In this document: positions 38,526 through 47,824 of the stretch, in pieces | Position numbering within the stretch: position 1 is the first letter of the stretch | How the letters are laid out: each line of letters starts with the position of its first letter | Origin: Tropicibacter sp. R16_0 | Lineage (GTDB): Bacteria; Pseudomonadota; Alphaproteobacteria; Rhodobacterales; Rhodobacteraceae | Length of the DNA stretch: 64,000 bases | Reading direction: 5' to 3' | Assembly (NCBI RefSeq): GCF_017743935.1 | Contig: NZ_JAGHRE010000002.1 | Span: forward strand, 248,001-312,000 | Made by a program: the position numbers and the translations under genes | The notes under the pieces: model-generated | Seen by the model: the letters and a program-made list of their open reading frames with translations, nothing else | The model's database searches: none | Told to the model about the DNA's origin: nothing

Positions 38526-39281
38526 TCAGCTTTTGTCGCGCGCCGCGCGGGCCGCCATGACGTTGTCTTTCAGCGTGAGCGTATAGGCGGTGAGCTCTTG
38601 CAGAGCTGCATCGGCAGCTGCGGCATCGTTGGCCTCGATCGCGTCGGCAATCCGCGTGTGAAGGGCCACGATCTCTTCGCGCGAACGGGCGGTGAAGGTG
38701 ATCATGTTCATCAAAGGTTGCATCGCTTCGACCGCACCGGCCAGTTGATAGGACAGCACCGGATTGTCGGCCCCATCCACCAGCGCCCGGTGAAAGGCCA
38801 CGTCAGAGGCACAGAATGCCTCATCGGTCAGGCCCGGCTGGCTCTGGCGCACGATTTCGGCCCGCATGGTGGCAAGATGGTCCGGGGTGCGGCGGTCGGC
38901 CGAGAGCGGCGCACAGGCGCGCTCCAGTGCAAAGCGCGCCTCACAGGCCGTATCAAAGCTGACCGCGTTCATGCTGAGCAAGAGGGTCGAGGTTGTGACC
39001 TGTTGAGGATAGGCGTCCTCAAAACTCAACCGGTTGACGAATGCGCCCCCTGATGCGCCGCGTTGGGTTCGGATCAGGGATTGCGCAGCAAGGCGTTTCA
39101 GGGCTTCGCGTACCGTGGAACGGGACACTTGAAACTGCTCGCACAGCTCGGTTTCAGAGGGGAGGCGTTCGTCGACGATCAGCTCACCACCGATGATCGC
39201 ATCTTTGATCGCCTGGGCGATTTGCACCGAAAGATCGGCCGAACTGTTGGGATCAATTTTCACGACATCACCATTTTTCAT
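38526..39281 (-). CDS. GntR/FadR-family transcriptional regulator
   Basis: A 251-residue regulator. The winged helix at residues 15-82 has LPSETELCEQFQVSRSTVRE and LIRTQRGASGGAFV. The FCD effector domain follows (residues about 100-235), with metal-ligand-type residues in DVAFHRAL and ALHTRIADAI. It is divergent from DUF2182-DUF1326-dmdA-acuI. In Ruegeria pomeroyi a GntR regulator also sits beside dmdA, so it probably controls DMSP demethylation, with a DMSP metabolite as inducer. A FadR-type operator lies immediately before its own start, suggesting autoregulation. Confidence 0.9.
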   Translation of the reverse strand: MKNGDVVKIDPNSSADLSVQIAQAIKDAIIGGELIVDERLPSETELCEQFQVSRSTVREALKRLAAQSLIRTQRGASGGAFVNRLSFEDAYPQQVTTSTLLLSMNAVSFDTACEARFALERACAPLSADRRTPDHLATMRAEIVRQSQPGLTDEAFCASDVAFHRALVDGADNPVLSYQLAGAVEAMQPLMNMITFTARSREEIVALHTRIADAIEANDAAAADAALQELTAYTLTLKDNVMAARAARDKS

Positions 39282-39282
39282 T

Positions 39283-39309
39283 TGTCTGACATTTAAAAGT
39301 CTGACATTT
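39283..39309. promoter_or_regulatory. Putative GntR operator with tandem half-copy
   Basis: TTGTCTGACAT around 39282-39292 fits the FadR-group pattern TNGTNNNACNA, with the core TGTC-T-GACA a perfect palindrome. GTCTGACATTT recurs at 39284 and 39299, 15 bases apart. The whole divergent gap is only 59 bases, so binding here would cover both promoters. Confidence 0.55.
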
Positions 39310-39340
39310 GAGTCGTAGGGGATGACTCGGGGAGGATCAA

Positions 39341-40132
39341 GTGAGCCGTCTGTCTGTCAGATCATTTTTGTGGCTTGGGTTCTACGGAATCATCCTGGCG
39401 GCGTGGTGGGTCCTGTATTCCATGGCGATCGACATGGATCTGGATCTGATCGGTCGTCCCGGTCCGATGGGCGAAGCCATGCGCCAGATGGACCCGCGCA
39501 TGGACATGTATATGCCCATGGCCGAGTTTGGCCCGCTGTTCTGGATGTGGGGCATCATGATGGCGGCGATGATGTTGCCGACTTTGGTCCCGACCTTGCA
39601 AAGTTACGAAGACCTGATGACGTCGGCCGACGGAACAAGAGCCGGCTGGATCGGTGTTCTGTTGGGCTATTTCCTGGTTTGGCTGGCGTTTGCCGCCGCC
39701 ATCACAGGAGTCCAATTGGCGCTGCTCTTCGGCGGCGCCGTGGATATGCTGGGGATCGCAAAATCCCCCTGGTTGTCAGCCGGTCTGCTGATCGCAGTCG
39801 GGGCTTTTCAGTTTTCCCGCACCAAAGAAGTCTGTCACGGCGTGTGTCACGCCCCGATGATGTACTTCATTGGCAATTGGCGCACCGGGTTTGCCGGCGG
39901 GTTGCGCATGGGGCTGGGTCTGGGCGCGTTTTGTGCCGTCTGCTGCTGGGGGTTCATGGCGCTCGGCTTTGTCGGCGGTGTCATGAGCCTGCTGTGGATG
40001 GGCCTCGCCACCTTTTTCATGGTTCTGGAAAAACTACCGCAAATCGGCCACCGTGTGACCAAACCCCTTGGCGTTCTGCTGATCGCCGCGGGTCTGGCCT
40101 TGCTGGTCTATGTATACGTAATTGGAGGATAA
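39341..40132 (+). CDS. DUF2182 metal-binding-type membrane protein
   Basis: A 263-residue integral membrane protein with about seven hydrophobic segments. Residues 28-78 hold 14 methionines (for example MRQMDPRMDMYMPM and WGIMMAAMMLP), and near residue 164 there is EVCHGVCHAPMM. Both are soft-metal (copper-like) ligand arrangements. DUF2182 is annotated as a predicted metal-binding membrane protein without known function. GTG start at 39341 follows a clear GGAGG. The next gene, DUF1326, begins 3 bases after its stop. Position between the GntR regulator and dmdA ties it to the DMSP operon. Confidence 0.85.
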   Translation: MSRLSVRSFLWLGFYGIILAAWWVLYSMAIDMDLDLIGRPGPMGEAMRQMDPRMDMYMPMAEFGPLFWMWGIMMAAMMLPTLVPTLQSYEDLMTSADGTRAGWIGVLLGYFLVWLAFAAAITGVQLALLFGGAVDMLGIAKSPWLSAGLLIAVGAFQFSRTKEVCHGVCHAPMMYFIGNWRTGFAGGLRMGLGLGAFCAVCCWGFMALGFVGGVMSLLWMGLATFFMVLEKLPQIGHRVTKPLGVLLIAAGLALLVYVYVIGG

Positions 40133-40135
40133 CCG

Positions 40136-40840
40136 ATGGCAGTGAAACGTAAGCCCAATGCCGACCGCCTGCCGGTCAGCCAACGGATCGACAGCCGCAT
40201 GGCCAATCCCAGCCGTCGCGACAAGACGCCCACCGATTGGGCGATCAAAGGCGAGCTGATCCTGAACTGTTCCTGCGATGTGTTCTGTCCTTGTGTGGTG
40301 TCCTTGGGCGCACACCCGCCGACCGAAGGGCATTGCCACGCCTGGATGGGGATCATCATCGACGAAGGCCACTACGAAGGAGAGGACCTGTCGGGCCTGA
40401 ACGTGGGCCTGCTGGTCGACATCCCCGGTCGTATGGGCGAAGGCCAGTGGAAGGTTGCGGCCTATGTGGACGAGAACGCCAGCGGCAAAGCCTATAACGG
40501 TCTGCTCGAGATCTTCTCGGGCAAGGCGGGCGGCACGACCGGTCTGTTCACCATGTTGGTGAGCGAAATCATCGGAGCCGAGCGCGCACCTGTTGTCATC
40601 GAACGCGACGGGGCCAAGCGCCGCATCACCATCGGTCGCAAGATCCAGGGCGAGATCGAGATGCTGGGCGGGTTGGATCCCGAACACCCCGTCATGGTCA
40701 GCAACTCCAAATACTGGATGGGCCCTGACATCATCGTGGCCCGCGGTACCAAATCCAAGGTGCGCGACTATGGCCGCGTCTGGGATTTTGGCGGCAAATC
40801 GGCCGAAATCTGCCCGATCAACTGGAGCGGCGCCCGCTGA
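40136..40840 (+). CDS. DUF1326 cysteine-motif protein
   Basis: A 234-residue soluble protein with the DUF1326 signature LNCSCDVFCPCVVSLG, cysteines 45, 47, 51 and 53, probably a metal or redox site. The rest is beta-rich (AYNGLLEIFSGKAGGTTGLF, EIEMLGGLDPEHPVM) without other motifs. It is preceded by GGAGG and sits 3 bases behind DUF2182, so the pair is translated together. Function unknown; a metal-handling partnership with the membrane protein is my inference. An 8-bp hairpin (40852-40877) separates it from dmdA. Confidence 0.85.
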   Translation: MAVKRKPNADRLPVSQRIDSRMANPSRRDKTPTDWAIKGELILNCSCDVFCPCVVSLGAHPPTEGHCHAWMGIIIDEGHYEGEDLSGLNVGLLVDIPGRMGEGQWKVAAYVDENASGKAYNGLLEIFSGKAGGTTGLFTMLVSEIIGAERAPVVIERDGAKRRITIGRKIQGEIEMLGGLDPEHPVMVSNSKYWMGPDIIVARGTKSKVRDYGRVWDFGGKSAEICPINWSGAR

Positions 40841-40906
40841 GAAAGCACTTTGCCGCCGTAGAAAAAGCAACGGTGGCGGATCATCAACTGTTTGAGGAGA
40901 CAAGGC

Positions 40907-42001
40907 ATGGCCATCATCATGCCATCGCGCCGCGTGCGCAAAACACCGTTTTCGCCCGGGGTCGAGGCGGCCGGGGTCAAGGGCTACACCGTCTATAACC
41001 ACATGTTGCTGCCGACGTTCTTCGAAAGCGTCGAGGCGGACGCCGCGCATCTGAAACAGCATGTGCAGGTCTGGGATGTGGCCGTTGAACGCCAGGTGCA
41101 GATCAAAGGGCCGGATGCCTTGCGGTTGATGAAAATGATCAGCCCGCGCGACATGGACAAGATGGCGGATGATCAGTGCTATTATGTCCCATCCGTGGAT
41201 CACAACGGGGGCATGCTGAACGATCCGGTATCGATCAAGCTGGCCGACGATCATTATTGGCTCTCGGTCGCGGATGGCGATCTGTGGCAATATGCACTTG
41301 GCATCGCCATCGCGCTTGGCCTGGATGTCGAAGTGGATGAGCCCGACGTCTCGCCGCTGGCGGTGCAAGGACCCAAGGCTGACGATCTGATGGCGCGGGT
41401 GTTTGGGGACGTGGTGCGGGACATCAAGTTCTTCCGCTACAAGCGTCTGCCGTTCGAGGGGCAGCAGTTTATCGTGGCGCGCTCGGGCTGGTCCAAGCAG
41501 GGCGGGTTCGAGATTTACGTTGAGGGCACGGAATACGGCATGCCGCTGTGGGATGCTCTGTTTGCTGCAGGTGAGGATCTGAACGTGCGGGCAGGGTGCC
41601 CCAACAACATCGAGCGGGTCGAGAGTGGGTTGCTCAGCTTCGGCTCGGACATGCGTCGGGACAACACGCCCTATGAATGTGGGCTTGGGCGGTTCTGTAA
41701 CTCGCCCGAGGCCTATATCGGCAAGGCGGCATTGGCAGAACAGGCCAAGAACGGCCCGCCGCGTCAGATCCGGCCGATTGTGATCGAGGGCGAGATCGGC
41801 GCATGCACCGGCTCTTGGCCGTTGCTCGCGGATGGTCGTCAAGTGGGGCAGGTGGCCTCGGCGGTGTTCAGCCCCGAGTTTGCCGTGAACGTCGCCATTG
41901 GCATGGTGGATCGCTCCCATTGGGATGCGGGAACCCGAATGGAGATCGAAACCGAGCACGGGCTGCGCGGCGCCGTAGTGCAGGAGAAATTCTGGCGGTG
42001 A
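40907..42001 (+). CDS. dmdA: Dimethylsulfoniopropionate demethylase
   Basis: Tetrahydrofolate-dependent removal of a methyl group from DMSP, giving methylmercaptopropionate; first step of the demethylation pathway. The protein is GcvT-fold, 364 residues, the same length as Ruegeria pomeroyi DmdA and closely similar as I recall its sequence (AAGVKGYTVYNHMLLPT, LMKMISPRDMDKMADDQCYY, GWSKQGGFEIYVEG, NTPYECGLGRFCNSPE). Those stretches separate it from glycine cleavage T-protein. ATG 40907 follows GAGGAG; the frame extension to 40892 is not needed. acuI follows, as in Ruegeria, and the DUF1326 gene lies 66 bases upstream. Confidence 0.96.
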   Translation: MAIIMPSRRVRKTPFSPGVEAAGVKGYTVYNHMLLPTFFESVEADAAHLKQHVQVWDVAVERQVQIKGPDALRLMKMISPRDMDKMADDQCYYVPSVDHNGGMLNDPVSIKLADDHYWLSVADGDLWQYALGIAIALGLDVEVDEPDVSPLAVQGPKADDLMARVFGDVVRDIKFFRYKRLPFEGQQFIVARSGWSKQGGFEIYVEGTEYGMPLWDALFAAGEDLNVRAGCPNNIERVESGLLSFGSDMRRDNTPYECGLGRFCNSPEAYIGKAALAEQAKNGPPRQIRPIVIEGEIGACTGSWPLLADGRQVGQVASAVFSPEFAVNVAIGMVDRSHWDAGTRMEIETEHGLRGAVVQEKFWR

Positions 42002-42089: not shown

Positions 42090-43085
42090 ATGTTCAATGC
42101 ATTGGTTGTTGAAAAAGACGAAGAGAGTGGCAAGGCAAGCGCCGCGGTCCAGCAAATCGGTCTGGATGCTCTGCCTGAGGGTGAAGTGACCGTTGCGGTG
42201 GAGTATTCCACCGTCAACTACAAGGATGGTCTGTGCCTGAGTTCGAGCGGCGGTGGTCTGGTCCGCAAGTATCCGCATATTCCCGGCATCGACTTTGCTG
42301 GCACGGTCGAGGCGTCCAGCGATGACCGTTACAAGCCGGGCGACAAGGTGGTTCTGACCGGCTGGCGCGTGGGTGAGGCGCATTGGGGCGGTTACAGCCA
42401 AAAGGCCAACGTACGGGCCGATTGGCTGGTGCCGCTGCCCGAGGGGCTGGATGCACGACAGGCGATGGCTGTCGGAACGGCGGGTTTCACTGCGATGTTG
42501 GCCGTCATGGCGTTGGAAGATCACGGCATGACCCCGAACCACGGCCCGGTTCTGGTTACCGGTGCAGCAGGCGGCGTGGGCTCGGTCGCAACCGCGATCC
42601 TGGCCAACCTGGGCTATGAGGTGGCAGGTGTCACCGGGCGGCCCGAAACGGCCGATTACTTGAAATCCCTGGGCGCTACGCAGATCGTGGCGCGTGAAGA
42701 GATCAACGAGACCACCAAACGCCCGCTGGAAAGCGAAACATGGGCGGGCTGCGTCGATGCGGTTGGCGGTGCCATGTTGGCGCGGGTGTTGGGGCAGATG
42801 AAATACGGCGCTTCGGTCGCGTCGGTTGGTCTGGCCGGCGGTGCGGGCTTGCCTGCGACCGTCATCCCCTTCTTGCTGCGCGGTGTGAACCTTTTGGGCA
42901 TCGACAGCGTCATGCAGCCCTATGACAACCGTTTGCGCGCCTGGCAGCGGGTTGCAACCGATCTGCCGATGGACAAACTTGAGGCAATGATCCAGCCCGC
43001 GACGCTCAGCGACCTGCCGCAACTTGGCGCAGACATTCTGCAGGGTCAGGTAAAGGGCCGCGTCGTTGTTGATGTGAACGCCTGA
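42090..43085 (+). CDS. acuI: Acryloyl-CoA reductase (NADPH)
   Basis: MDR-family oxidoreductase reducing toxic acryloyl-CoA, formed from DMSP catabolism, to propionyl-CoA. 331 residues: YSTVNYKDGLCLSS and PHIPGIDFAGTVEASSDDRY match the AcuI subgroup (YhdH-like). The nucleotide-binding motif is VTGAAGGVGSVATAIL. Directly downstream of dmdA (88 bases) as in Ruegeria, so the two are co-expressed. A GGGGAGAAACG site precedes ATG 42090 and a strong terminator ends the unit. Confidence 0.95.
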   Translation: MFNALVVEKDEESGKASAAVQQIGLDALPEGEVTVAVEYSTVNYKDGLCLSSSGGGLVRKYPHIPGIDFAGTVEASSDDRYKPGDKVVLTGWRVGEAHWGGYSQKANVRADWLVPLPEGLDARQAMAVGTAGFTAMLAVMALEDHGMTPNHGPVLVTGAAGGVGSVATAILANLGYEVAGVTGRPETADYLKSLGATQIVAREEINETTKRPLESETWAGCVDAVGGAMLARVLGQMKYGASVASVGLAGGAGLPATVIPFLLRGVNLLGIDSVMQPYDNRLRAWQRVATDLPMDKLEAMIQPATLSDLPQLGADILQGQVKGRVVVDVNA

Positions 43086-43338: not shown

Positions 43339-44919
43339 ATGTCCGAAAAGAAGGAGACCGACTATGAGGTCGGTCAAGACAATGTTCAGGTCTTGGGCCT
43401 GGACATCCACAACCCGGTGTTTGCCGTATCCGGTCTGACGATCGTTGCATTTGTTTTTTTCTCGCTGGTCTTTCGCGAACAGGCCGGTGAATTCTTCGGC
43501 TGGCTGCGGGTGGCGCTGACCTCGCGGTTCGACTGGGTCTTCATGATCGCCTGCAACATCTTTGTGCTGTTTTCGCTGCTGCTGATCGTGACGCCCTATG
43601 GCTCGATCCGTTTGGGTGGGGCCGATGCGAAGCCTGACTACAGCTATGCGGGCTGGATTTCGATGCTGTTTGCCGCTGGCATGGGCATCGGGCTGGTGTT
43701 CTGGGGCGTGGCCGAGCCGATCTCGCACTATGGTGCCAGCCTGGGTGGCGTTGCCACGGGCGAGGATGGCCTGCGCACCGACTGGGCACCGCTTGGGGCA
43801 GCAGCCGACAACCCACAGGGCGCGCGTGACCTGGCCATGGCCGCCACCATCTTCCACTGGGGTCTGCACCCTTGGGCGATCTACGCAGTCGTGGCCCTGG
43901 CGCTGGCCTTCTTCAGCTTCAACAAGGGACTGCCGCTGACGATGCGGTCGGTGTTCTATCCAATCTTTGGTGAGGCAACCTGGGGCCCCTTGGGTCACAT
44001 CGTTGACGTTCTGGCGGTGTTTGCCACCATCTTTGGTCTGGCGACGTCTCTGGGTCTGGGTGCAACGCAGGCGCTGGCGGGGCTCAACTATCTGTTTGGT
44101 GTGCCGGTGTCTGATGGCATGAAGGTGCTCTTGATCATCATCATCACCGCGTTTGCGCTGGTCTCGGTGGTTGCCGGGCTGGACAAGGGCGTCAAACGTC
44201 TGTCCGAGGCCAACATGATGCTGGCCGCTGCTCTGCTGGTGCTGGTTCTGATTGTCGGGCCGACCATCGCGATCTTGTCGGGATTCTTCACCAACTTGGT
44301 GGATTACGCCGTACAACTGCCCGCATTGTCGAACTGGATTGGCCGTGAAGACACCAACTTCATGCAGGGCTGGACCACATTCTACTGGGCGTGGTGGATT
44401 TCCTGGTCACCCTTTGTGGGTATGTTCATTGCACGCATTTCGCGCGGCCGTACCGTGCGTGAGTTCGTGACTTGTGTTCTGCTGATCCCAACCCTCGTGG
44501 GTGCCCTTTGGATGAGCGTGTTCGGCAACGCCGGACTGGAACAGGTCATGGCCGGTGGTGCCGAGGCGCTGCAAGACGCTGGCCTTGAGTTGAAGATGTT
44601 CGTGATGTTCGAGGCCTTCCCGCTGTCCAGCCTTCTGTCACTGGTGGGGATCATCCTGGTGGTGGTCTTCTTCGTGACCTCGTCCGATTCCGGCTCGTTG
44701 GTGATCGACACCATCACCGCAGGCGGCAAGACCAACGCACCCACGGCACAGCGCGTGTTCTGGTGCATCCTGGAAGGTGCGATCGCGATCGTGCTGCTGT
44801 TGGGCGGCGGTCTGGGGGCGCTTCAGGCAGCGGCGATTGCAACGGGCTTTCCCTTTGCCATCATCCTGGTGCTGATGTGCGTGTCGATCTTCATCGGCCT
44901 GTCGCGCGAAAAGCGGTAG
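43339..44919 (+). CDS. BCCT-family transporter (betaine/DMSP type)
   Basis: A 526-residue, 12-helix sodium-coupled carrier for quaternary ammonium or sulfonium compounds. GMGIG (114-118) in FAAGMGIGLVFWGVAEP is the substrate/sodium motif of glycine-betaine-type members. TTFYWAWWISWSPFVGMFIA is the aromatic binding box and BCCT signature, and SSDSGSLVIDT is the late helix. Next to dmdA-acuI it most probably imports DMSP, with glycine betaine as a second substrate. GGGAGTGAG precedes ATG 43339. Short N- and C-terminal tails give little room for an osmosensor domain like that of BetP. Confidence 0.9.
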   Translation: MSEKKETDYEVGQDNVQVLGLDIHNPVFAVSGLTIVAFVFFSLVFREQAGEFFGWLRVALTSRFDWVFMIACNIFVLFSLLLIVTPYGSIRLGGADAKPDYSYAGWISMLFAAGMGIGLVFWGVAEPISHYGASLGGVATGEDGLRTDWAPLGAAADNPQGARDLAMAATIFHWGLHPWAIYAVVALALAFFSFNKGLPLTMRSVFYPIFGEATWGPLGHIVDVLAVFATIFGLATSLGLGATQALAGLNYLFGVPVSDGMKVLLIIIITAFALVSVVAGLDKGVKRLSEANMMLAAALLVLVLIVGPTIAILSGFFTNLVDYAVQLPALSNWIGREDTNFMQGWTTFYWAWWISWSPFVGMFIARISRGRTVREFVTCVLLIPTLVGALWMSVFGNAGLEQVMAGGAEALQDAGLELKMFVMFEAFPLSSLLSLVGIILVVVFFVTSSDSGSLVIDTITAGGKTNAPTAQRVFWCILEGAIAIVLLLGGGLGALQAAAIATGFPFAIILVLMCVSIFIGLSREKR

Positions 44920-45054: not shown

Positions 45055-45180
45055 ATGTCGCATTATCTCTGCCAGAGAAATGACGGCGACACGGCTCGGC
45101 TGGAAGACCTGCCCTGTTCCGGAGACCCCGAAACAAGGATGGGGCGACCGGTCGAGATGTGGAGCTGCAAAAGGACATAG
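45055..45180 (+). CDS. Possible 41-residue leader peptide ORF
   Basis: ATG 45055 to TAG 45178-45180 encodes 41 residues beginning MSHYLCQRNDGD and ending VEMWSCKRT, with three cysteines. AAGGG lies upstream and its stop is 5 bases before the start of the desulfurase-like gene, whose own AAGGA lies in its last codons. That geometry suits translational coupling. There is no homologue I recognise; it may be fortuitous. Confidence 0.25.
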   Translation: MSHYLCQRNDGDTARLEDLPCSGDPETRMGRPVEMWSCKRT

Positions 45181-45185
45181 TGGCG

Positions 45186-46415
45186 ATGACAACCCTGGAT
45201 ATTGATTTTGTGCGCGCGCAGTTTCCGGCTTTTTCCGAAGCGGTTCTGCAAGGACAGGCTTTTTTTGAGAATGCAGGTGGCTCGTACACCTGTCAGCAGG
45301 TCATCAACCGACTGACCCGCTATTACACTCAGCGCAAGGTGCAACCCTATGCACCTTATGATGCCAGCCGTCTTGCGGGCGAGGAGATGGATGAGGCGCG
45401 CACGCGCATGGCTGCGATCCTGGGCGTTGAAACGGACGAACTGAGTTTTGGCCCATCGACGACGCAGAATACCTATGTGCTGGCGCAAGCCTTTCGTCAG
45501 TGGATGAAACCGGGCGAGGCCATCGTTGTTACCAATCAGGATCACGAGGCCAACAGTGGCCCCTGGCGGCGTCTGGCGGACGAGGGCATCGAGGTGCGCG
45601 AGTGGGCCATCGATCCGGAAACGGGGCATCTGAACCCAAGCGATCTAGAGGCTTTGCTGGACGAAAAGGTGCGCCTGGTCTGCTTTCCGCATTGCTCGAA
45701 TGTTGTCGGAGAGATCAACCCGGTGACCGAGATCACGGCCATCGCCCATGCGGCCGGTGCCTTTGTCTGTGTTGATGGCGTTTCCTACGCGCCGCACGGG
45801 TTCGCAAATGTGGGTGAGTTGGGGCCGGACATCTATCTGTTCTCGGCTTACAAGACCTATGGCCCGCATCAGGGCTGCATGGTGATCCGCCGTGCCTTGG
45901 GGGAACTGCTGCCGAACCAGGCGCATTATTTCAACGCCGATGTGCTGTACAAACGCTTCACACCCGCCGGACCGGATCATGCCCAAATCGCGGCCTGCGC
46001 CGGTATGGCGGACTATATCGAAGATCTGAGCGGCCATCATGGCGGCCCATCCGAAGGGCTGGCAGAAAAAGGGGCCTTTGCCCATGATCTTATGCGTGCG
46101 CATGAGGTGGCTTTGCTGCAGCCTCTGTTGGATTCCGTCAAGGACCGCAACTCTGTCCGGCTGATCGGCCCGGCGAACGCCGAACAGCGCGCGCCCACGG
46201 TTGCTTTGGGCCTGAACCGCCCTGCAGAGCCGGTGGCGGCAGAGTTGGCTAAGCATGGCATCATGGCAGGTGGTGGTGATTTTTATGCGGTGCGCGCCTT
46301 GCAGGCGATGGGGATTGATCCTGAAAATCAAGGTGTTCTGCGGTTGAGTTTCACGCATTACACCTCGAAGGATGAAGTGAACAAGCTGATCGAGGCCCTG
46401 GATCACGTGCTCTGA
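45186..46415 (+). CDS. Cysteine desulfurase-like aminotransferase class V (VC1184 type)
   Basis: A PLP enzyme of 409 residues related to SufS/Csd. FENAGGSYTCQQVI begins it, FGPSTTQNTYVLAQ and DHEANSGPWRRLA form the cofactor pocket, VCVDGVSYAPHG holds the Asp, and Lys223 in FSAYKTYGPHQG is the Schiff-base lysine. It lacks the typical SufS cysteine-loop signature, so desulfurase activity is uncertain; the subfamily is usually annotated only by similarity. ATG 45186 is taken as the start; ATG 45159 is an alternative, since the best AAGGA lies between them. Confidence 0.85.
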   Translation: MTTLDIDFVRAQFPAFSEAVLQGQAFFENAGGSYTCQQVINRLTRYYTQRKVQPYAPYDASRLAGEEMDEARTRMAAILGVETDELSFGPSTTQNTYVLAQAFRQWMKPGEAIVVTNQDHEANSGPWRRLADEGIEVREWAIDPETGHLNPSDLEALLDEKVRLVCFPHCSNVVGEINPVTEITAIAHAAGAFVCVDGVSYAPHGFANVGELGPDIYLFSAYKTYGPHQGCMVIRRALGELLPNQAHYFNADVLYKRFTPAGPDHAQIAACAGMADYIEDLSGHHGGPSEGLAEKGAFAHDLMRAHEVALLQPLLDSVKDRNSVRLIGPANAEQRAPTVALGLNRPAEPVAAELAKHGIMAGGGDFYAVRALQAMGIDPENQGVLRLSFTHYTSKDEVNKLIEALDHVL

Positions 46416-46615: not shown

Positions 46616-47824
46616 ATGGTTCTAACTTCGACCGAAGGGCAGAAAGATCTGCCAAGGTATTTCGCGCAGGTCCATCGGATGCTGCACAAGATGGAAGCTG
46701 GGCGTCTGGACATCGTCTTGCCAGACGGTCGAACGTTTCGATCCGAGGGTTCAAAACCTGGCCCAGTGGCGCAGATCGACGTGCATCATCCTGATCTTTT
46801 TGCAAGATTGATCCGCGAGGGGGACCTCGGTTTTTCCGATGCCTACCTTGAGGAATGGTGGAGCTCACCGGATTTGCGCGCCTTTATGGATCTTGTGCAT
46901 CAAGGCTCTGAAACCGTGTATGACCATTTCCCGGGCCGTGGGTTGATCCGCGCTTATGAGCGACTGCGCTTTTGGCTGCATCGCAATCACAAGGAGCAAG
47001 CCAAGAAGAACATCTCGTATCACTATGATTTGGGTAACGATTTCTACGCCCTCTGGCTCGATGATACGATGACCTATTCCAGCGCGTTGTATGAAACCGG
47101 ACAGGAAAGTCTGGAGAACGCGCAGACCGCCAAATACGCAAGCTTGATCGATGAAATGGGCGTGAAACCAGGTGATCACGTGTTGGAAATCGGTTGTGGC
47201 TGGGGCGGGTTCGCAGAATATGCGGCCAAGGAGCGGGGGTTGAAAGTCACGGGGCTGACCATCAGTCAGGAGCAGTTCAACTATGCGAAAGAGCGCATTG
47301 AAAACGCTGGACTTTCTGATCAGGTGACTTTCAAGCTGCAAGACTATCGCGATGAAACCGGCAGCTATGACGGTATCGCCAGCATTGAGATGTTCGAGGC
47401 GGTTGGGCAAAAATATTGGCCAACCTATTTCAGCACGGTTCATGACCGGCTGAAGCCCGGCGCCCAAGCCACCCTGCAGATCATCACGGTCAATGATACC
47501 CGATGGGAGGTCTACAAGAACGGTGTCGATTTCATCCAGAAACACATCTTTCCGGGCGGCATGCTGCCTGCGCCGAAGATCTTGCGCGAGCAGGTCGATC
47601 TGGCCGGGCTGACTTTCGTCAAATCCAAGGAGTTCGGCCAAAGTTATGATCTGACGCTGCGCCGATGGTACGACACGTTCAACGCCAAGTGGGAGCAGAT
47701 CACCGAAATGGGGTTTGACGACCGGTTCCGGCGGATGTGGAACTTTTACCTGACCTCTTGCGGTGCGGCCTTTTACATGGGCAACTGTGACGTGACCCAG
47801 ATCACCATTGCCCGCAAGGGCTGA
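46616..47824 (+). CDS. cfa: Cyclopropane-fatty-acyl-phospholipid synthase
   Basis: SAM-dependent methylation of unsaturated membrane lipid acyl chains to cyclopropane rings. The 402-residue chain has an N-terminal lipid-binding domain. The SAM site is VLEIGCGWGGFAEYA, and GLTISQEQFNYA and SIEMFEAVGQKYW are characteristic of Cfa. The catalytic-region QKHIFPGGMLP is intact. GGGGAGG precedes ATG 46616. It is followed 27 bases later by trgA. Confidence 0.93.
   Translation: MVLTSTEGQKDLPRYFAQVHRMLHKMEAGRLDIVLPDGRTFRSEGSKPGPVAQIDVHHPDLFARLIREGDLGFSDAYLEEWWSSPDLRAFMDLVHQGSETVYDHFPGRGLIRAYERLRFWLHRNHKEQAKKNISYHYDLGNDFYALWLDDTMTYSSALYETGQESLENAQTAKYASLIDEMGVKPGDHVLEIGCGWGGFAEYAAKERGLKVTGLTISQEQFNYAKERIENAGLSDQVTFKLQDYRDETGSYDGIASIEMFEAVGQKYWPTYFSTVHDRLKPGAQATLQIITVNDTRWEVYKNGVDFIQKHIFPGGMLPAPKILREQVDLAGLTFVKSKEFGQSYDLTLRRWYDTFNAKWEQITEMGFDDRFRRMWNFYLTSCGAAFYMGNCDVTQITIARKG

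Follow-up and report, generated by a model that had tools for sequence, protein, structure and literature searches.

A DUF2182 (PpoB2)–DUF1326 gene pair at the head of DMSP demethylation operons as a putative copper-handling unit

Introduction

DMSP demethylation is among the most studied marine sulfur pathways, and the locus described here raises the question of what two methionine- and cysteine-rich proteins do at the front of the operon that encodes it. In the window (the whole stretch of DNA analysed here, 64,000 nucleotides of a 5.24 Mb draft genome), a preliminary description had noticed a DUF2182–DUF1326 gene pair beside the demethylase gene dmdA, taken it for an insertion relative to the gene order in Ruegeria, and suggested that it may be a soft-metal or thiol-handling partner in DMSP catabolism. 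Our search of the open literature (subscription journals and supplements were outside its scope) found no published function for DUF2182 and DUF1326 in this position, and one relevant paper on either family (PMC2855505).

Results

Organization of the DMSP locus

The pair stands between a divergent GntR/FCD-family regulator gene and dmdA (Table 1), as had been described. Both of its genes are intact and separated by a gap of 3 bp; DUF2182 starts with GTG at 39341 and dmdA with ATG at 40907. Each of the two families is represented by a single copy in the window's genome. The predicted AcuI scores slightly below the cut-off of the equivalog model NF051456 (430.1 vs. 440 bits). Family profile searches recognised neither a copper enzyme nor a tyrosinase in the DMSP operon of the window.

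Table 1. Features of the DMSP locus in the window (positions are those of the window).
Feature	Position	Strand	Basis or remark
GntR/FCD-family regulator gene	38526..39281	-	divergent from the pair; PF07729 and PF00392 matches
Double operator, two direct GTCTGACATTT copies 15 bp apart	39284..39309	.	between regulator and DUF2182
DUF2182/PpoB2-family membrane protein, 263 aa	39341..40132	+	PF09948, 192.5 bits
DUF1326 protein, 234 aa	40136..40840	+	PF07040, 173.5 bits
8-bp hairpin, one G-U pair, T run absent	40852..40877	+	shuffle folding, terminator scan
dmdA, DMSP demethylase	40907..42001	+	NF009133, 612 bits (cut-off 410)
acuI-type acrylyl-CoA reductase	42090..43085	+	TIGR02823, 458 bits (over cut-off)
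BCCT-family transporter	43339..44919	+	PF02028, 605.6 bits; in part of related loci

The 8-bp hairpin that had been reported before dmdA is indeed formed by GCCGCCGT and ACGGTGGC, but it is unremarkable and has no visible role: of 200 shuffled versions of the 70-nt stretch, 12 fold equally well (z -1.63), a scan for terminators called no site over it, and, with no T run present, its assignment as a terminator or a regulatory element was rejected.

Further downstream, the window contains a cysteine-desulfurase-like gene (45159-46415; best match TIGR01976, 289.9 bits, under cut-off) and a gene that we take to encode a cyclopropane-fatty-acid synthase (46616-47824). Genes of these two kinds trail the DMSP cluster in many relatives, whether dmdA is present or not.

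Linkage of the pair to dmdA and acuI

Profiles of PF09948, PF07040, DmdA and SBP56 were used to survey 246 genomes of the same family from 245 genera (244 of the genomes lie outside the window's genus); the survey covered all 132 genomes with DUF2182 and 127 of the 128 with DUF1326, and genes in part of the loci were called with a simple codon-usage script. DmdA scored above cut-off in 106 genomes, 84 of which have the pair, DUF2182 first, directly 5' of dmdA and read in the same direction; the DUF2182 and DmdA matches are 0.68-2.3 kb apart. In a Ruegeria-type genus, chosen because six named Ruegeria loci found their best blastn match there among the loci compared, DUF2182 is located no more than 3 kb upstream of dmdA in all 54 genomes. 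Therefore, the pair represents the usual arrangement rather than an insertion; the view that it interrupts the Ruegeria order had to be abandoned, and an insertion unique to the window's genome or genus is ruled out.

Among the 150 DUF2182 copies listed, 119 precede DUF1326 (DUF2182-first pairs), 84 of them linked to dmdA. Of the 35 such pairs without linked dmdA, 22 are followed by acuI within five genes on the same strand; the remaining ones include contig ends and three pairs with acuI on the opposite strand, while the gene caller gave no genes in three of the 35 loci (L058, L075, and L082) and several others reach a contig end. The opposite, DUF1326-first order was found in 25 copies, none of which lies within 8 kb of dmdA, and for six copies the match tables show no DUF1326 nearby, although one of these copies (G175) does have a neighbouring DUF1326.

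Altogether, the pair is present in 90 of the 106 DmdA genomes. Its co-occurrence with DmdA (90 of 115 genomes with the pair vs. 16 of 131 without it) corresponds to an odds ratio of 25.9 and a p value of 3.7e-27, uncorrected for relatedness; four DUF2182-first copies outside the clade described below or absent from the tree were excluded from the pair count. The arrangement is less common in other families of the class, where 4 of 25 DmdA genomes contain any DUF2182, in two cases directly before dmdA. Since 16 of the 106 DmdA genomes lack the pair and 21 of these 25 lack DUF2182, demethylation as such does not need it.

The neighbours were also compared in 80 named loci, the best 80 of at least 570 confirmed matches; as the closest matches they are biased to near relatives of the window. 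DmdA is encoded within 3 kb downstream of DUF1326 in 68 of these best 80 loci and AcuI, the most constant partner, within 5 kb in 72, and a divergent GntR match accompanies 72. The closest loci among the matches listed are those of Falsiruegeria mediterranea (97%) and Tropicibacter sp. Alg240-R139 (92%).

In 59 of the same best 80 loci, a gene of the DinB family (PF05163) directly follows DUF1326, and the two genes frequently overlap by 1-4 bp. It normally occupies the third place in the operon (e.g., L034:7733-8245), but neither the window nor its two closest relatives have it. The DinB superfamily includes metal-dependent thiol transferases.

The arrangement occurs on plasmids as well. That of Antarctobacter heliothermus carries, divergently from a GntR gene, DUF2182, DUF1326, dmdA and a gene of an MDR oxidoreductase, while in Marinovum algicola DG 898 the corresponding order is DUF2182, DUF1326, acyl-CoA ligase, dmdA, alcohol dehydrogenase and SBP56. 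In the GenBank record of the latter the two proteins are labelled 'Transmembrane protein involved in DMSP breakdown' and 'protein involved in DMSP breakdown', which indicates that the submitters had already noticed the link of the pair with DMSP. No publication behind this label was found in the open literature (subscription journals and supplements being outside the scope of the search).

A shared operator before the pair

The regulator and DUF2182 genes are separated by a double site of the consensus GTCWGACA, with the two copies 15 bp apart. Its distribution was followed in 99 loci with a GntR gene within 400 bp, some genomes being present twice. The core GTCNGAC lies between -140 and +20 of DUF2182 in 87 of the 99 loci, in two or more copies in 65; of 66 pairs of sites counted, 57 are spaced by 15 bp. 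The same core was found before dmdA in none of the 92 loci with DUF1326 upstream of dmdA, before dmdA in 1 of 20 further, mostly pair-unlinked loci, and before acuI in 1 of 123, the background being 0.049 per 160 bp. The 23-base double site, with up to three mismatches allowed, occurs once in the 5.24 Mb genome of the window. In five dmdA loci with a GntR gene and no linked pair, the core is retained beside the regulator in four and represented by diverged copies in one.

A double operator before DUF2182, none before dmdA, and a single occurrence in the genome make it likely that the pair is co-transcribed with dmdA and acuI. The simplest reading of the sequences is that one promoter before DUF2182 serves all four genes and that the adjacent regulator would act at the double site. 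The name 'DmdR' did not occur in the papers listed by the literature search. The pair very probably belongs to the DMSP operon.

Two further features of this region are worth recording. A GAGTCG or TGAGTCG box is present 3' of the double operator in the window (39309-39340) and in many relatives, and may be a promoter or start-site element. In one dmdA locus devoid of the pair (L220), operator-type sites downstream of the GntR gene are followed by a short frame that by eye resembles the start of DUF2182, possibly a decayed copy.

Phylogeny of DUF2182

The tree of 73 DUF2182 proteins is divided by a branch with support of 100/99, and one side of it holds 40 of the 41 copies that have dmdA or acuI downstream according to the neighbour rule. 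This side (46 rows), referred to here as the DMSP clade, contains six other copies, all DUF2182-first, most of which are at a contig end or lack acuI downstream. The other side has 27 rows: 22 DUF1326-first copies, whose neighbours vary, a solo copy, a copy labelled with acuI, and three DUF2182-first copies, two of which (L065 and L067) adjoin a GntR gene, with acuI divergent. The agreement between clade and genomic context is strong yet imperfect. Within the clade the dmdA label changes ten times, while acuI stays beside most copies. A second tree omitted five long-branch rows. Pairs far from sulfur genes, a concern of the preliminary description, do occur, but nearly all of those sampled lie in the separate part of the tree and usually have the opposite gene order.

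Conserved residues and predicted structures of the two proteins

The Pfam name of the DUF2182 family (PF09948) is PpoB2, with the description 'Copper chaperone', and the window protein matches positions 1-187 of the 188 of its model (cut-off 28.7 bits). The sequence motifs reported earlier are all present: 14 of the 24 methionines of DUF2182 lie in residues 28-78 (methionine makes up 4.7% elsewhere), CHGVCH spans residues 165-170, and DUF1326 contains CxC...CPC. An alignment of 47 DUF2182 sequences, ten of them from DUF1326-first loci, has 24 invariant columns, among them W70, P80, M206, E230, the methionine cluster M69/M73/M77/M78, and the cysteines C165, C169, C198, C201, and C202. In the wider set of 73 sequences, M69 is conserved in 96% of the 24 DUF1326-first sequences, and only the two cysteines of CHGVCH are invariant, its histidines not being conserved. 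The conserved methionine and cysteine positions are thus common to relatives outside the DMSP clade. The methionine-rich loop that precedes the MWxxMxxAMM motif is typical of the window's half of the DMSP clade (mean of 7.6 methionines per 42 residues in 24 sequences, range 0-11), whereas the other half lacks it (mean of 1.7 in 18 sequences); this uneven conservation across the clade speaks against a copper reading.

The AlphaFold2 model of DUF2182 (pLDDT 92.2) has seven helices of at least 14 residues. A search of PDB structures with this model gave no credible match, which does not prove a new fold, and sequence relatives in the PDB were limited to two short, weak matches.

DUF1326 of the window matches positions 2-176 of the 177 of the PF07040 model (cut-off 25 bits), and no signal sequence is apparent by eye at its start. 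Its cysteines are located at positions 45, 47, 51, 53, 67, and 226 (CxC...CPC...C), and the first five of them (CxCxxxCPC...C) are invariant in an alignment of 50 sequences; in a wider alignment C45 is conserved in 96% of the DUF1326-first group. No sequence relatives were found in the PDB. The AlphaFold2 model (pLDDT 87.7) predicts an acetoacetate-decarboxylase-like barrel (Foldseek E 4.9e-05; VIA Z 10.8, rmsd 3.4 over 153 residues for 4jme_B), and the nine best structural matches are acetoacetate decarboxylases and MppR. Acetoacetate decarboxylase enzymes have a conserved catalytic lysine. As no column of the 76-sequence alignment contains lysine at 85% or more in either group, we do not class DUF1326 as an enzyme of this type despite the agreement in predicted fold.

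Copper-related relatives

PMC2855505 presents PpoB2 of Marinomonas mediterranea as the first COG5486 protein to be given a role: it delivers copper to PpoB1, the tyrosinase encoded in the same operon, but not to a different copper oxidase. A second indication comes from plasmids; of 35 plasmid records with a DUF2182 match, 14 were examined. The DUF2182 protein of Sulfitobacter mediterraneus plasmid P2 falls inside the DMSP clade (support of 100/100 for the 46-row clade) and into a subclade with the window protein (99/93, where the bootstrap is not fully settled). Its gene, in the region L194:1750-9693, directly follows one for DsbB, with no annotated DUF1326 beside it, and within about 7 kb there are genes of CueR, a heavy-metal P-type ATPase with HMA domains, and an HMA protein; a glutaredoxin/MauE protein is also encoded nearby. 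It is the only copper-island member of the DMSP clade found in the plasmid records examined. In 11 other plasmid regions, which have no annotated DMSP genes and span several bacterial groups and a haloarchaeon, an annotated DUF1326 adjoins DUF2182 in ten, and a CusA/CzcA efflux gene is near DUF2182 in one; the remaining ten regions, the gene tables of which are incomplete, contain no annotated copper gene.

Methanethiol oxidase and cupin lyases

Near-complete SBP56, for which matches had to reach about 430 bits (78 of 87 genomes), is absent from 55 of the 115 genomes with the pair, five of which have a distant, broken or fragmentary match. Among DmdA genomes it is somewhat more common with the pair (56 of 90) than without it (7 of 16), a difference without statistical significance (odds ratio 2.1, p 0.18); neither SBP56 subtype is significantly associated with the pair in these genomes. 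The two SBP56 proteins of the window's genome have no signal peptide apparent by eye, and the single genomic operator precedes neither of their genes. No SCO1 or MauG gene was found among the four flanking genes scanned for each. In the window's genome, SBP56 is followed by genes of a 2Fe-2S ferredoxin-domain and a CoA-binding-domain protein (L271:4088-6270), and by reading of the sequence the same order is present in another genome at L261:2310-3574.

The idea that the pair supplies metal to cupin DMSP lyases (PF16867) was also considered and rejected. The association is weak overall (odds ratio 1.9, p 0.014) and not significant within DmdA genomes (0.89, p 1.0) or DmdA-free genomes (1.9, p 0.17); 15 genomes with matches below cut-off were left out.

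Discussion

The pair is probably a unit that handles copper or another soft metal, copper being the metal that the comparisons point to. Three kinds of evidence make copper handling the best mechanism at hand: the activity of the tested family member, the invariant methionines and cysteines, and the DMSP-clade copy in an island with CueR and a P-type ATPase. In such a mechanism, DUF2182 would be a PpoB2-type membrane protein that moves Cu(I) along its invariant methionines and cysteines, and DUF1326 would be a soluble partner that holds the metal by five invariant cysteines on its acetoacetate-decarboxylase-like barrel. Produced together with DmdA and AcuI, the two proteins could match copper supply or protection to the flux from DMSP to methanethiol, which is a strong copper ligand. 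Thus, the earlier proposal of a soft-metal partner in DMSP catabolism is favoured by family, conserved residues, the copper-island relative, linkage and a shared operator, while copper as the metal, the transfer of Cu(I) between the two proteins and the methanethiol rationale are our inference. For the whole picture, a promoter-proximal copper unit of a DMSP/acrylate operon under GntR/FCD control that exists because of methanethiol, the chances seem about even. The pair persists before acuI where dmdA is unlinked, so methanethiol may not be the reason for its presence, and a link to acrylate or acryloyl-CoA stress may apply instead.

That the cysteine motifs serve metal trafficking at all can be questioned. 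They might form a disulfide or thiol relay, working with the DinB protein against methanethiol or acryloyl-CoA stress. The frequent position of the DinB gene directly after DUF1326, often with overlap, the constancy of acuI as a partner, the DsbB gene before DUF2182 in the Sulfitobacter island, and the resemblance of the predicted DUF1326 barrel to small-molecule enzymes would all suit such a relay. In DUF2182, however, the methionine cluster is as invariant as the cysteines, which fits Cu(I) better than redox chemistry, the window and its two closest relatives have no DinB gene, and the only tested family member found acts on copper, as stated in the available part of PMC2855505. We therefore regard a thiol relay as unlikely.

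Copper handling could also be narrower than proposed above, with the pair acting as a dedicated chaperone that loads SBP56/MtoX, the enzyme that clears the methanethiol made by the operon. The available part of PMC5739008 reports that MtoX of Hyphomicrobium requires copper and that many mtoX genes lie near a SCO1/SenC gene; since no SCO1 or MauG match lies among the flanking genes scanned for SBP56 in the window's genome, a chaperone might conceivably be encoded elsewhere. In the Marinovum cluster acuI is followed by SBP56, which also lies within 10 kb of DUF2182 in two genomes; in a third, a short contig carries SBP56, DUF2182 and, by eye, GntR and crotonase-like genes. Nevertheless, nearly half of the genomes with the pair lack near-complete SBP56, its association with the pair is a weak positive trend without statistical support, and the SBP56 proteins of the window's genome have no apparent signal peptide, unlike the periplasmic MtoX, which makes general copper handling preferable. 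With the operator not shared either, a chaperone for MtoX only was set aside as quite improbable.

A further reading, to which we give very little credence, is that the pair, along with the DinB protein in those loci that have it, would handle methanethiol itself and serve as a sink or export route independent of MtoX. A copper-thiolate centre in the DUF1326 barrel would capture methanethiol as a copper complex, and methanethiol or its metal would be handed to the membrane protein DUF2182. Ruegeria lacuscaerulensis, which has no mtoX, is inferred in the available part of PMC7157515 to turn methanethiol into sulfide by another mechanism, and such a route, if real, could explain methanethiol conversion in strains without mtoX. 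Finally, a general metal-homeostasis pair might have fallen under the regulator and been retained by descent with no functional coupling, much as related pairs form small units amid unrelated genes in the 11 non-DMSP plasmid regions, but this is very improbable given a position kept in 84 genomes from nearly as many genera, on plasmids and in two genomes of other families, surviving repeated loss or gain of dmdA, and an operator before the pair.

A copper-handling pair at the head of the operon would point to an unrecognised metal-handling step in a major sulfur pathway of the ocean. DMSP breakdown would then carry a built-in metal cost or protection step, and the supply of trace metals might be tied to the balance between methanethiol and DMS. 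In addition, the DMSP operon offers a genetically tractable host for finding the function of PpoB2/DUF1326 pairs of bacteria and haloarchaea.

Among known systems, the roseobacter dmdA-acuI operon has the same order of these two genes as the window: of 26 Roseobacter strains with dmdA, 24 have acuI 3' of it (PMC3338564), and genes upstream of dmdA are not mentioned in the available part of that paper. The DUF1326–DUF2182 pairs found elsewhere, on which the open literature yielded no study, consist of the same two adjacent families with the same conserved cysteine and methionine positions, but unlike the window pair they are usually DUF1326-first, have other regulators and neighbours, and belong to a separate part of the tree. 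In mtoX operons (PMC5739008, available part), SCO1/SenC and MauG likewise place a putative copper chaperone gene beside a gene of the methanethiol pathway; they belong to other protein families and are linked to mtoX, whereas the window pair is linked to dmdA and acuI. Finally, PpoB2 of M. mediterranea (COG5486, PF09948) is of the same Pfam family as DUF2182 of the window and shares its operon with the enzyme that receives the copper, PpoB1 (PMC2855505, available part); in contrast, the window DUF2182, putatively a copper-transfer protein too, pairs with DUF1326 and heads a DMSP operon.
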